DNA from: Methanobacteriota archaeon
Lineage (GTDB): Archaea > Thermoplasmatota > Thermoplasmata > Methanomassiliicoccales > UBA472
Direction of reading: 5' to 3'
DNA: 38,831 bases
Assembly (NCBI GenBank): GCA_012729095.1
Contig: JAAYDU010000031.1
Span: forward strand, 1-38,831
Shown piece by piece: positions 13,185 through 17,407 of this stretch. The first letter of the stretch is position 1. Each line of letters begins with the position of its first letter. A program made the translations under genes and the position numbers. The notes beneath the pieces were generated by a model. The model saw only the letters and a list, made by a program, of their open reading frames with translations. It was not told the DNA's origin and did not search any database.

Positions 13185-14171
13185 TTAGAACATGGGCTCG
13201 GCCTGTTCCAGATGCTTGACGGTATCGCGCAGGGCGGCCATTACCTCCGGCACCCCTTGCCCGGTGGCCGCGCACATCTTTAGCCGGTCGGAGCCGCTGT
13301 CGAATATGTCGACCTTGTTCTCCACGACCAGGACGGGTACCCCGGGGAACAGCCCTTTGACCGACTCCAGCAGACCCATCTGCCCGTCCAAGTGATAGCC
13401 GCTGGTCTCCGAGGGGTCGAGTATGAACAGTATGGCGTTCGCCAGGTGCTTGAGCGCGGTGACCGCCTGCATCTCTATGCGGTTGCGGTTCTCCAGTTCC
13501 CGGTCCAGCAACCCGGGCGTGTCTATCACCTGATAACGGCGCCGGTTCGCCTCGTGTATGCCCACCTCTATCCCCTTGGTGGTGAAAGGATAGGCGGCCA
13601 CGTCCGGCTCCGCGGCGGAGATCGTGCGCAGGAACTGGCTCTTTCCCACGTTGGGAAAACCGGCTATTACGAAGGTGAGCAGGTCATCGTTGAAGTCCGG
13701 GACCTTTCGGAACTCGTTCCGGGCAAAGGTGAGGAACTCGAGATCGGGACCGACCTTGTTGACCACGGAGGACGCCCGGCCGTAGAAGGCCTTGCGGGAC
13801 AGGTCCGCAGCCTGCACGGACGATGATGTCATGACCTTGCTGGTATACTGCTTCTGCAGTTCTTTGATCTTGGAAGAGGCCCAGTCCAGATTGGAGAGCG
13901 CCTTCTTCAGCTTGTCCACGCCCACCGTCACCTCTATCATCTCCGCCAGAAAATCCCCTCGATCGTTGATGCTGGGGAAGGCTTTCACGTACTTCTGGAA
14001 GGTCGATGTTATTACGTCAGTGGCAGAGGCTATGCGGGCCATGGACTTACGCTTGACAAGCTCCACCTTGTCCGGCCCCTGCTTATCTATCTTGCAGACC
14101 TTGCGAAAGGCCTTGTCCAGGATCTCATCCGCAGTAAGAATGGTGGGGACACGCTTCCTAAGGTTCTGCAC
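13185..14171 (-). CDS. NOG1-family GTPase (ribosome assembly)
   Basis: This 328-residue GTPase belongs to the Obg/NOG1 group, which in eukaryotes and archaea is linked to large-subunit assembly. The N-terminal ~160 residues form the NOG1 helical bundle, followed by the G domain: G1 at G171-FPNVGKS, the G2-region YPFTTKGIEVG, G3 DTPG and G4 NKVD, then a G5-like CAATGQG. The start codon is GTG at 14171; the TATA-like TTTATAAA about 26 bases upstream (14195-14202) supports a leaderless mRNA. It lies 39 bases before the PolD start and the two may be cotranscribed, although PolD has its own TATA. Confidence 0.93.
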   Translation of the reverse strand: MQNLRKRVPTILTADEILDKAFRKVCKIDKQGPDKVELVKRKSMARIASATDVITSTFQKYVKAFPSINDRGDFLAEMIEVTVGVDKLKKALSNLDWASSKIKELQKQYTSKVMTSSSVQAADLSRKAFYGRASSVVNKVGPDLEFLTFARNEFRKVPDFNDDLLTFVIAGFPNVGKSQFLRTISAAEPDVAAYPFTTKGIEVGIHEANRRRYQVIDTPGLLDRELENRNRIEMQAVTALKHLANAILFILDPSETSGYHLDGQMGLLESVKGLFPGVPVLVVENKVDIFDSGSDRLKMCAATGQGVPEVMAALRDTVKHLEQAEPMF

Positions 14172-14194
14172 GGTTCGTCACAAAGTAGAGGTAG

Positions 14195-14202
14195 TTTATA
14201 AA
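14195..14202. promoter_or_regulatory. Shared palindromic TATA box (NOG1 / HTH-Nudix)
   Basis: TTTATAAA is a perfect palindrome. Read leftwards it sits ~26 bases before the NOG1 GTG (14171), giving a leaderless mRNA. Read rightwards it predicts a start near 14225, which would exclude the ATGs at 14205 and 14217 and favour the ATG at 14253 for the HTH-Nudix gene. It is the only good TATA in this short divergent gap. Confidence 0.5.
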
Positions 14203-14252
14203 ACATGGCTCACGCCATGACCTATGCCTTGCGGGCGGAACCGGTGCTCACT

Positions 14253-14906
14253 ATGGATGGACTGGACATCCTGGACATGGACGACCTCAGGCTGCTTGTC
14301 CTGCTCCGGGAGGGCGGGTTGGAAGGGGCTGCCCGTGCCCTTGCCCTGAAGGAGGGCACCGTACTCCGGAAGGCGCGCGCTATCGAAAGAAGGGTCGGGG
14401 GCAGATTACTGGAGAGCAACGCGCTTGGTCCAAGGGGCGTGGAGCTCATCGATGCTATGGAACTTTACGCGCGCTTGCTCGATGCTCAGCTCGAGAATCT
14501 TTGGCGCAAGCCCAGCCTGACCTGCGATGGCCTCCTGATCAGGGACGGGAAGGCCCTCCTGGTCAGAAGGGGGAGGGAACCGTTCCTGGGTCGCCATGCC
14601 CTGCCCGGGGGTTTCGTGGAATACGGGGAAAGTGTCGAGGACTGCGTGGTGCGGGAGGTTAAGGAAGAGACGGGACTGGACTCGGAGGTCGTTACGCTTG
14701 TTGGCGCATACTCCGAGATGGGCAGGGACCCCCGTGGTCATTTCGTAACACTTCTGTTCCTGCTCCGTGAGACGGGCGGGACCCTGAAGGCCGGCGATGA
14801 CGCCGTGTCGACCGGTTTCTTCGACCTGTCCGACCTGCCGGAGTTGGCCTTTGACCACGAAAGGATGATCAGGGACGGCCTGGGTGTGGCGGAACATCAT
14901 TTATAG
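14253..14906 (+). CDS. N-terminal helix-turn-helix fused to a Nudix hydrolase
   Basis: The 217-residue protein has two parts. Residues ~8-75 resemble a LysR/ModE-type winged helix (LLREGGLEGAARALALKEG, then AIERRVGGRLLES and GPRGVELI). Residues ~90-215 form a Nudix domain with the full signature G120-x5-E126-x7-R134-E135-x2-E138-E139-x-G141, which binds the metal and cleaves nucleoside-diphosphate-linked substrates. The PGGFVEYGES context is typical of ADP-ribose/NADH-pyrophosphatase-like members. In-frame ATGs exist at 14205 and 14217, but the TATA box lies only 8-20 bases before them, so the ATG at 14253 is preferred. The combination suggests a transcription factor that senses or consumes a nucleotide metabolite. 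An Lrp-type regulator follows directly. Confidence 0.8.
   Translation: MDGLDILDMDDLRLLVLLREGGLEGAARALALKEGTVLRKARAIERRVGGRLLESNALGPRGVELIDAMELYARLLDAQLENLWRKPSLTCDGLLIRDGKALLVRRGREPFLGRHALPGGFVEYGESVEDCVVREVKEETGLDSEVVTLVGAYSEMGRDPRGHFVTLLFLLRETGGTLKAGDDAVSTGFFDLSDLPELAFDHERMIRDGLGVAEHHL
14899..14906 (+). promoter_or_regulatory. TATA box of the Lrp/AsnC gene
   Basis: ATTTATAG overlaps the last codons and stop of the HTH-Nudix gene and lies ~25 bases before the first of three consecutive or near-consecutive ATGs (14925, 14928, 14931). This fits a leaderless transcript separate from the upstream gene. Confidence 0.45.
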
Positions 14907-14924: not shown

Positions 14925-15374
14925 ATGATGATGGGTCAGGACGACCTGGACGAGACGGTCCTGCGCATGTTGCAGGGCAACGGCAAGATGACCATAGAAG
15001 AGATAGCCGATAAGCTAGACCGTTCCCCTTCCACCATAAGGGACCGCATACGCCGAATGGAGGAGGAACGGTTGATACTAGGGTACTCGACCATCGTCGA
15101 CCAGGAAAGGCTAGAGGTGGACGCCGAGGCGCTGATACTGGCCGATGTGGACCCGCTAGAGGAGGGGGCGGCGATCAGCGCCCTGATGTCCCTGGAGCAG
15201 GTCAGCGAGGTCATGAAGGTCACGGGTGAGCCGCGGCTCATGTTCCGGGTGCGCGCCTCGGACCGCAGGGAGCTGCTCAGCTTCCTGGACCGGAAGATAA
15301 GGCCGTTGGGCTTCCATCGCATTGATGTGCGCCTGATCCTTGACCGGGCGGTGAGATACCCGGGCTCCGTTTGA
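14925..15374 (+). CDS. Lrp/AsnC family transcriptional regulator
   Basis: This 149-residue regulator has an N-terminal winged helix (LDETVLRMLQGNGKMTIEEI, ADKLDRSPSTIRDRIRRMEE, ILGYSTIVD) and a C-terminal RAM-type ligand-binding and oligomerisation domain (alpha-beta segments around residues 65-145). Such proteins commonly respond to amino acids or related metabolites. The start begins with ATGATGATG, so any of the three could be used. The genes it controls cannot be read from the sequence; the nearest candidates are itself, the HTH-Nudix gene and the permease downstream. Confidence 0.9.
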   Translation: MMMGQDDLDETVLRMLQGNGKMTIEEIADKLDRSPSTIRDRIRRMEEERLILGYSTIVDQERLEVDAEALILADVDPLEEGAAISALMSLEQVSEVMKVTGEPRLMFRVRASDRRELLSFLDRKIRPLGFHRIDVRLILDRAVRYPGSV

Positions 15375-15414: not shown

Positions 15415-16686
15415 ATGCAGACCATGACCTGGTTGGCGTTGCTGGTCTTCCTGTTCACCTATGCGCTCATTTCCATCAGGAGGGTGCGCAGCGTCAGCAT
15501 CGACCGCCCGGCCGCTGCCCTGTTCGGGGCGCTTCTCATGGTACTGCTGGGCCTCGTCTCCGCCGATCAGGTGGTGGCGGCCATAGACCTGGACATCATC
15601 GGTCTGCTACTGGGCATGATGGTCATCGTGTCCTGTCTGGAGATCACCGGGCTCTTTGACCGGGTGGCGGTGTTGATGGTGGCCCGCTGCGCGGACCGGT
15701 TCAGCCTTCTGTGGCTGAGCATGGGAGCGGTGGCCCTGCTTTCCGCTCTGATACTCAACGACACGGTCGTTCTGATGTTCACCCCCATACTGATCAAGGT
15801 GTGCCGTTCAATCGAGGTTAACCCCGTCCCTTACCTGGTCGGGGAGGCGTTGGCGGCCAACATCGGTTCCGTGGCCACGGGGGTGGGGAACCCGCAGAAC
15901 GCGTTCATTCTGATCCAATCGGGCATATCGTTCACAGATTTCACCCTGGCCCTCACCCCGTTGGCAGTGGTTTCCTTGGCAGTGGCGATCATCGTGGTCG
16001 CGATGGTGTTCCGAAAGGACCTTTTCGAGGAGGGTTTGCGCCCCCTCCCCATCGATCGATCGCGGGCCATGTCCGCAACCCCCCGGGTGCGCTTGGAAGG
16101 ACCCTTCTACCTGGTCCTGATCGTGCTGGCCGCTGTTCTCACGGGGTTTATCGCCTCCTCCTGGATAGGCGTGCCCATATCATTGGTGGCCTTCCTGGGA
16201 GCAAGCCTTTTGCTGCTGGCCTTGCCCCTGGTCAAGAAGGACACGGGCACCGCCCCCATTCTACGCGGCGTGGACTGGACGCTGATACTCTTCTTCGTCG
16301 GTCTCTTCATACTGCTGAAGGGAGTGGAGACCTCGGGCCTGATGGGATCGATGCTCGACGCGTTCGCGGACCTGGGGATCGGCATAACGAAGGTGACCGG
16401 GCTTACCTTCATCTCTTCCGTGCTCTCCAACCTCATCAGCAACGTTCCGGCGGTGATGCTGCTGTCTCCCGCGGTACAGGCGGGGAACGACGCGCTGTGG
16501 CTGAGCCTGGCTTCCTCATCCACGCTGGCCGGTAACGCCACCGTGCTGGGCGCGGCGGCCAATGTCATCGTGGTGGAGAAAGGGCTGAGCATGGGCGTGG
16601 AGGTGCGCATTCGGGACTTTCTCATGGCCGGACTCCCGGTCACCCTGGTGACGCTGATGATCTCCATTCTGTTCCTGGGAACATAG
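15415..16686 (+). CDS. SLC13/ArsB-NhaD superfamily ion or anion permease
   Basis: This 423-residue integral membrane protein has about eleven hydrophobic segments. It shows the ion-transporter superfamily signatures in two repeats: LILNDTVVLMFTPILIK with ANIGSVATGVGNPQN in the first half, and SNLISNVPAVMLLSP with ASSSTLAGNATVLGAAANV in the second. The NDT/NVP discontinuous-helix motifs and GNPQN/GNATVLG loops are typical of ArsB, NhaD and related YbiR-like carriers. The substrate could be a sodium ion, arsenite or an organic or inorganic anion; no ars gene is nearby. TTTAATAA (15383-15390) is about 29 bases before the ATG. The stop is TAG, and the gene converges with the peroxiredoxin. Confidence 0.85.
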   Translation: MQTMTWLALLVFLFTYALISIRRVRSVSIDRPAAALFGALLMVLLGLVSADQVVAAIDLDIIGLLLGMMVIVSCLEITGLFDRVAVLMVARCADRFSLLWLSMGAVALLSALILNDTVVLMFTPILIKVCRSIEVNPVPYLVGEALAANIGSVATGVGNPQNAFILIQSGISFTDFTLALTPLAVVSLAVAIIVVAMVFRKDLFEEGLRPLPIDRSRAMSATPRVRLEGPFYLVLIVLAAVLTGFIASSWIGVPISLVAFLGASLLLLALPLVKKDTGTAPILRGVDWTLILFFVGLFILLKGVETSGLMGSMLDAFADLGIGITKVTGLTFISSVLSNLISNVPAVMLLSPAVQAGNDALWLSLASSSTLAGNATVLGAAANVIVVEKGLSMGVEVRIRDFLMAGLPVTLVTLMISILFLGT

Positions 16687-16726: not shown

Positions 16727-17407
16727 TCAGAGCTTCTTGGTGCAGAACCACCAGTCGTAGCAGTCCTTGCCCTTGCCAACGTTCTTCTTCCGCTCCATCG
16801 CGGTGTCGTAGTCCTTCGGCGGGGGCAGTATTGCGCGGTCGCCAATGAGCTCGCTGTTGGGCCAGCCTTCCGGGGTGGCCAGACCGCTCTCGTCGCAGAA
16901 CTGCAGGGCCTTCAGGGCACGCACGACCTCGGCCACGCTGCGACCGATCTCCTGTGGGTAGTAGATGATAAGGCGTATGTTGGCCTTGGGGTCCACCAGG
17001 AACACGGCCCTGACGGTATTGCTGGCCTTTCCGGGGTGTATCATGCCCAACCTCATGGCCACGTCCCCATGGTCGGCAATGATGGGGAAAGGTATCTTTA
17101 CGCCGATGTTCTCCTCGATCCACTCCACCCACTTAATGTGAGAGAACACCTGGTCGATGGACAGCCCGACCAGGACCGCGTTCATCTTTTCGAACTCCGC
17201 GGCCCTATTGGCGAATGCCACGAACTCGGTGGTGCAGGTGGGGGTGAAATCAGCTGGGTGGCTGAAAAGCACCAACCACTTGCCCGATACGTCCTTCGGA
17301 AGGCTCATCGGACCGTGGGTGGTGGCCACGGTCATGTCCGGAAACTTGTCCCCTATCAATGGCAGGCCCATCATTGAATCTTCGATATCTTCGCACATGT
17401 CGATCAC
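16727..17407 (-). CDS. Peroxiredoxin (Prx6-type, archaeal)
   Basis: This 226-residue thiol peroxidase reduces H2O2 and organic peroxides. The peroxidatic cysteine is C58 in [13 protein letters not shown]. The Prx6-type C-terminal extension ([19 protein letters not shown]) is present, and C216 and C222 (CYDWWFC) match the extra cysteines that archaeal members use as resolving residues. The first codon is GTG at 17407, with an ATG three codons later; a TATA box (TATAAATATG on the minus strand, 17431-17440) lies ~29 bases upstream and supports a leaderless start here. It stands alone between the permease and NfeD genes and fits protection of an anaerobe together with MsrA. Confidence 0.95.

Follow-up and report, generated by a model that had tools for sequence, protein, structure and literature searches.

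A ModE-type winged helix fused to an intact Nudix hydrolase across Thermoplasmatota: a candidate enzyme-regulator

Can a single protein be both an active Nudix hydrolase and a DNA-binding switch? The Nudix-based regulators described in the literature consulted are bacterial, carry the helix-turn-helix (HTH) domain last and have an impaired Nudix box; NrtR is described in this way, with its Nudix domain first (PMC4666351, PMC6800001). The window analyzed here, a 38,831-nt stretch of contig JAAYDU010000031.1 (GCA_012729095.1) from a Methanobacteriota archaeon (Methanomassiliicoccales, UBA472), encodes a protein with the opposite arrangement. The first-pass annotation had proposed a domain order reversed relative to NrtR together with an intact Nudix box, and our computational analysis bears out both: a ModE-type winged HTH occupies residues 11-94 and a Nudix domain residues 98-228. 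The gene stands in the order GTPase (minus strand), ModE-Nudix, Lrp and transporter (Table 1).

Table 1 Features of the ModE-Nudix locus in the window.
Feature	Position	Strand	Basis or remark
ModE-Nudix fusion gene	14217..14906	+	229 aa; alternative start 14205 gives 233 aa
ModE-type winged-HTH domain, residues 11-94	14247..14498	+	model pLDDT 93.3; ModE 1b9n Z 11.4; hhalign probability 97.4
Putative recognition helix, residues 46-60	14352..14396	+	SYRHAW-type motif replaced by a mostly basic helix in the window's genus
Wing remnant, residues 61-71	14397..14429	+	RGGxxGG loop missing
Nudix hydrolase domain, residues 98-228	14508..14900	+	PF00293; 3gz8 Z 20.5, 2yyh Z 20.3
Complete Nudix box GX5EX7REUXEEXGU, residues 132-154	14610..14678	+	sequence pattern and alignment
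Divergent spacer, 33 bp	14172..14204	.	gapless, 91% mean identity in nine carriers; contains TTTATAAA (14195-14202)
Divergent GTPase gene	13185..14171	-	Obg-like matches to the GTPase part, all below cut-off
Lrp/AsnC-family regulator	14925..15374	+	18 bp downstream of the fusion gene, co-directional
CitMHS/ArsB-superfamily transporter	15415..16686	+	co-directional with the fusion gene

The open frame of the fusion gene spans positions 14205-14906 on the plus strand. The start at 14253 given by the first-pass annotation is too late and was rejected: the ATGs at 14205 and 14217 are both invariant in all nine same-genus genomes (the window's and eight others), versus an in-frame ATG at 14253 in the window alone, and a start there would cut into the first strands of the ModE-like domain, to which the residues on both sides of 14253 belong. 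The protein starts at the position equivalent to 14217 in more distant families, and the 229-aa numbering from this codon is used throughout. At two loci from family f6 (L021 373-2178 and L024 184-1989) the fusion frame reaches some 360 codons further upstream than the ModE-type start, perhaps by chance.

The HTH of the window protein is weak by sequence, matching PF00126 at E 0.0014, below the cut-off of that family, and the ModE profile TIGR00637 is not among the best 25 of the 31 families listed for it. The N-terminal domain was modeled separately because full-protein fold searches fill up with the Nudix part. AlphaFold2 gave the whole protein a pLDDT of 93.0 with a pTM of 0.69, so that the relative placement of the two domains is less sure, and gave the N-terminal domain folded alone a pLDDT of 93.3 with a pTM of 0.82. 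The best fold match of the latter was E. coli ModE (1b9n/1b9m; Z 11.4, 93 residues, 2.8 Å), followed by further ModE entries (Z 11.2 and 10.7), with LysR-type domains at Z 9.8 and lower; Foldseek also ranked ModE first. In hhalign, a profile of 36 N-terminal domains matched a manually entered E. coli ModE sequence with a probability of 97.4.

The relatives that we call canonical (alignment A1) are L014 together with 24 loci from the series of 30, L033-L062; of the six loci omitted from that series, four (L047, L048, L061 and L062) have eroded heads. All 25 match TIGR00637 (best E 8.9e-24) as well as PF00126 at E ≤0.01, and canonical relatives match PDB ModE at 1.2e-14. L014 itself reaches 78.8 with TIGR00637, below the curated cut-off of 98.5, and scores above the cut-off of PF00126. 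Canonical heads mostly keep a SYRHAW-type motif in the recognition helix and an RGGxxGG-type motif in the wing. Both the whole-protein and the N-terminal models were built on alignments that contain such relatives, and the window's own N-terminal fold is thus partly inferred from them. On model and profile evidence the N-terminal domain is a ModE-type rather than a LysR-type winged helix. It had been annotated as "LysR/ModE-like": the HTH fold and the ModE half of that label stand, and the LysR half falls, since PF00126 stays below its cut-off, the window protein has no LysR substrate domain and ModE is the better fold match. The accompanying doubt, that this part might not fold as an HTH, is dispelled by the confident model and its ModE match.

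The Nudix domain is recognized directly (PF00293, E 7.9e-24). The window protein has the full box pattern, as do 40 of the 41 fused proteins aligned; in L042 the last Gly is replaced by Ser. G132, E138, R146, E147, E150 and E151 are invariant in all 41. The top solved folds were tied, with 3gz8, the ADP-ribose-bound Nudix domain of NrtR, at Z 20.5, 2yyh from Aquifex at 20.3 and 3o8s, a Streptococcus "ADP-ribose pyrophosphatase", at 19.8. By these marks of sequence and fold the Nudix half is predicted to be a catalytically intact hydrolase of the ADP-ribose-pyrophosphatase-like group. PMC10311068 gives a proline rule for ADP-ribose hydrolases, at position 16 relative to the box. The window protein departs from it, with Met168/Gly169 at the corresponding site, which is Pro168 in 35 of 41 aligned fused proteins and in all 25 canonical relatives; Pro168 falls at position 16 only when the numbering takes the box's last Gly as position 1.

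The possibility that the fusion is unique to this genome, raised by the first-pass annotation, was dismissed once homologues were collected. Both parts lie in one frame without stops in at least 41 of 389 genomes of the phylum, from 19 families, where fused means a match from query residue ≤12 to ≥229, counted by hand; G001, G005 and G009 match partially in this search yet are fused in a separate alignment. Some match (E ≤0.001, weak paralogues counted) occurs in 57 of 61 relatives' genomes, the window's own included. Among 31 aligned sequences, 28 have the N-terminal domain, two (L031 and L032) stand alone and L029 is truncated where its contig ends. When named genomes were scanned, 13 loci among the best 80 of 579 relatives were fused over their full length, with titles naming Thermoplasmatota groups or just "Euryarchaeota archaeon" (3). 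The other 67 of these best 80 were mainly matches to the Nudix part, including Archaeoglobus, Methanosarcina, Thermococcus and some bacteria, and a few of them (L097, L109 and L111, for instance) have a longer frame before the Nudix domain. On a Nudix tree of 61 fused and 69 stand-alone rows, counted after five fused near-copies were dropped, the label changed 6 times versus about 43 in shuffles; the tree has too few columns for deep forks. Fused rows thus cluster, which fits a single old fusion followed by losses, as far as the tree can be read.

How does this protein compare with known systems? ModE shares the N-terminal winged HTH (TIGR00637 in 25/25 canonical relatives; fold Z 11.4), and its C-terminal part binds molybdate. 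In the fusion protein that part is replaced by a Nudix enzyme: no C-terminal molybdate-binding TOBE/Mop domains are found in it, the remainder being Nudix. Membership in the ModE family proper was rejected on this ground, as only the N-terminal winged HTH is shared and the window's sequence for it is eroded. Stand-alone archaeal Nudix hydrolases, presumably COG1051-like, have the same Nudix domain without the ModE-type HTH; the 67 loci that did not match over the full length (best 80 of 579) are 39-62% identical to the L014 fusion in their best segment. The bacterial NrtR/AraR regulators resemble the fusion in joining a Nudix-type domain of the same broad group (fold Z 20.5) to a winged HTH. 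In NrtR, however, the HTH comes last and the box is impaired (PMC4666351, PMC6800001), whereas the fusion protein opens with its ModE-type domain and has a complete box. The NrtR family was rejected for this reversed order, for the complete box and retained catalytic residues, and for a score of 31.9 bits against a cut-off of 400 with the NrtR model NF050029, which covers the Nudix part alone. RbkR, an archaeal HTH-riboflavin kinase listed as a bifunctional gene regulator and enzyme in a table of PMC8305020, is alike in having an archaeal N-terminal HTH joined to a metabolic enzyme; the enzyme is unrelated, and the dual role is reported for RbkR and inferred for ModE-Nudix. The terms "HTH" and "winged helix" are absent from the searched text of PMC5389931. 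The locus represents a conserved domain architecture of the HTH-enzyme fusion or Nudix-based regulator kind, and we found no description of this ModE-Nudix variant among the literature matches listed.

We then scored the heads and Nudix domains of 67 proteins, some of whose genes occur twice under two locus names, against profiles of each. Members of the canonical-head profile were scored with themselves left out, except five second copies (L017, L019, L022, L068 and L070), and members of the Nudix profile without leaving themselves out. Head scores were bimodal, with 42 at 103-142 bits, 25 at ≤71 and none between, and Nudix scores were 160-216 bits in all 67. The window's head scored 2.9 bits against the 103-142 of the 42 canonical copies. 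Twenty-four of the 25 low-scoring proteins fall within the window's order, in its families f1 and f6, and the remaining one is L097; in families f5 and f3, also of that order, the canonical head persists. The N-terminal part of L097, a Nudix protein from Thermoplasmata, is 106 residues long and scores -1.0 bits as ModE; its head may have decayed independently.

The window's genus, a member of family f1, has lost the diagnostic recognition residues and the wing. The ratio of head to Nudix divergence reaches 2.0 both in this genus and in f6 and 1.8 in the remaining f1 genera, compared with 1.24 for outer families and 0.92 for f5/f3. Head dN/dS ranges from 0.05 to 0.58 over six pairs from the window's genus and exceeds that of the Nudix part in five (e.g., 0.38 vs 0.10), the pair L008/L010 showing the reverse; canonical heads give 0.05-0.08 in three computable pairs with dS of 1.6-2.6, near saturation. 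These values are rough because dS is often high. The mean net charge of the recognition helix is +3.9 in the window's genus, where the helix is basic in eight of nine copies (the exception, L004, is at -1). The mean is -2.8 for the remaining f1 genera and -2.0 for f6, where two of nine copies are at 0, and the canonical groups average +1.0 and +0.8; basic residues are almost absent from the helix in the f1 sister genera and fewer in f6. Eight of the nine heads of the window's genus match PF00126 at E ≤0.05, with 24 Pfam families matched overall, mainly HTHs, and the reading frame of the fusion is kept in all nine. Taken together, the recognition helix appears to have been rebuilt in the window's genus, and DNA reading has probably been lost in the sister groups. 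Judged from these comparisons of sequence, the DNA-reading part in the window's lineage is stripped and rebuilt and the enzyme is intact, a mirror image of NrtR decay.

The Lrp regulator that had been noted downstream is indeed encoded there, and in the window's order it adjoins the fusion in all 21 loci examined (18 assigned by gene cluster and three, L146, L148 and L150, by tblastn). The divergent GTPase is one that we take to be Nog1-like. An AhpC/TSA-family peroxiredoxin gene lies at 16727-17407, convergent with the transporter gene, with tblastn matches of 66-92% in eight congener loci. At L158 6970-8344 (family f5), a C_GCAxxG_C_C redox protein and a MEDS sensory-domain protein adjoin the Nudix-Lrp pair.

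At 10 of 54 loci, all from lineages other than the window's, the nearest co-directional gene upstream of the fusion is hutU (urocanate hydratase); a small antisense frame intervenes in L163, and the pairs L074/L180, L068/L167 and L070/L181 each appear to be one contig. The hutU gene abuts the fusion gene in L065 and L165, and in G422 the ends of the hutU and fusion matches are 72 nt apart. FtcD (over its cut-off) and an FchA-like protein (195.5 bits, cut-off 275) are encoded upstream in L165, and ModE-Nudix ends a row ftcD-fchA-hutU for histidine degradation in L165 (2810-6733), L180 (5515-9480) and L182 (5962-9927), the upstream ftcD-fchA being assigned by gene cluster in L074/L180 and L182. 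At E 1e-50, hutU is found in 284 of 389 genomes of the phylum, and neither the window genome nor any of the six congeners drawn gives a match; for a gene this widespread, co-occurrence with the fusion is uninformative. A dyad scan of the regions preceding 27 canonical genes and five hut rows gave dyads above shuffles in several sequences (L017, 6 vs 0.84) and none in others, and no shared operator motif was seen by eye.

The spacer between the GTPase start (14171) and the ATG at 14205 is gapless and 91% identical in nine genomes, with 25 of 33 columns invariant, versus 60-71% identity for three further spacers in this row of genes (one measured in eight genomes). By its position, TTTATAAA (14195-14202) is the likely TATA box of a leaderless minus-strand GTPase gene. 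A 19-bp element beside it has a single exact copy per genome in the five carriers searched, where the remaining matches have three mismatches and equal in number those of the reversed pattern; nine other genomes contain no exact copy. Two-mismatch matches of the spacer element in G021 and G023 lie on contigs other than that of the fusion gene. Given the single exact copy per carrier genome, no wider regulon is seen in these five.

One congener, G006, offers a natural comparison. Its GTPase and Lrp genes are present, as is, judged by eye, the transporter start, with no ModE-Nudix between them: about 400 bp separate the GTPase and Lrp genes (L193 595-1500, G006:C31), with no recognizable remnant of the fusion gene in the gap, the best tblastn match there (E 0.07) being taken as chance. 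This gene-absent case is one genome, 94% complete, with a contig continuous through the site. An ATG is kept at the place of 14205 and begins an open frame of 289 aa that crosses the gap and enters lrp, which may be fortuitous. The spacer in G006 has the same length and is identical to the window's at 23 of 33 positions, versus 29-32 in the eight other carriers, yet the G006 GTPase gene shares 80% identity with that of the window, within the carriers' range of 77-85%. From this single case, constraint on the spacer appears tied to the fusion gene, whether as operator, promoter or both.

Our combined findings are best explained by a family of bifunctional enzyme-regulators in which a ModE-type winged helix is joined to an intact Nudix hydrolase, with activity and binding both predicted, a reading that we hold at about even probability. 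The protein would be dimeric, with its ModE-type domains binding DNA close to its own gene and its Nudix pocket binding and removing a nucleoside-diphosphate ligand, ADP-ribose or a relative. The level of this ligand would set DNA binding, and hydrolysis would let the protein reset its own signal. Since the head has been rebuilt in the window's genus, with a mostly basic helix and no wing, it probably reads a different, local site there, perhaps the 33-bp spacer; alternatively, the regulatory half may be in the course of being lost. Several observations weigh against the bifunctional reading: the spacer, with no wider regulon of its element in five carriers, may simply be a promoter; heads of the window's genus diverge twice as much as the enzyme, and the ratio in the outer canonical families (1.24) is not below 1; the window's head reaches 2.9 bits with the canonical profile, and L014 stays below the curated TIGR00637 cut-off; the L004 helix has a net charge of -1, the f1 sister helices are nearly devoid of basic residues and those of f6 have fewer; and the dyad scan revealed no operator in common. 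A more specific version is rather unlikely, though worth stating: an old Thermoplasmatota enzyme-regulator, mirroring NrtR, in which a hydrolase-sensor destroys its own signal while the DNA-reading half decays or is rewired, the wingless head of the window's genus being re-aimed at the frozen spacer shared by its own gene and that of the GTPase.

The protein could instead be a housekeeping Nudix hydrolase with a vestigial ModE-type head, formerly a reader of DNA, which in the window's genus would aid just folding or dimerization. The 2.9-bit score and missing wing of the window's head, its twofold divergence and elevated dN/dS in five of six pairs, the mostly acidic helix of sister groups, the stand-alone Nudix proteins in some relatives and the absence of the gene from G006 with its neighbors kept count in favor of this reading. 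The maintained frame in nine copies, the basic helix in eight, the matches to generic HTH profiles, the purifying selection on the head (slower than the Nudix part in L008/L010) and the frozen spacer in carriers count against it. For the family we regard this as a tentative alternative; within the window's own genus, its likelihood comes close to that of the bifunctional model. A narrower role, as a local switch of histidine degradation (ftcD-fchA-hutU) in canonical lineages that was rewired in the hutU-less genus of the window, draws on the adjacency of hutU in 10 of 54 loci, on the L165 row and on the missing hutU matches in the window genome and six congeners. We consider it improbable: hutU is far commoner than the fusion, canonical heads occur without linked hutU in family f8, the canonical-head f5/f3 genomes G023, G025 and G028 are not among the 284 with hutU, and the dyad scan gave no common operator. 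That the protein works exactly like NrtR, as a ligand-binding repressor without catalysis, would agree with the fold match of its Nudix domain to 3gz8 but is very hard to reconcile with the complete box, invariant catalytic residues, reversed order and low NF050029 score.

If the bifunctional reading is true, an archaeal family with the opposite domain order and an intact active site would mean that enzyme and switch can coexist in one protein. The natural variants described here, with canonical, acidic, rebuilt or no head, or with the gene absent, form a test set for the coupling between a nucleotide signal and transcription. A plain "Nudix hydrolase" label could then conceal a regulator across a phylum.
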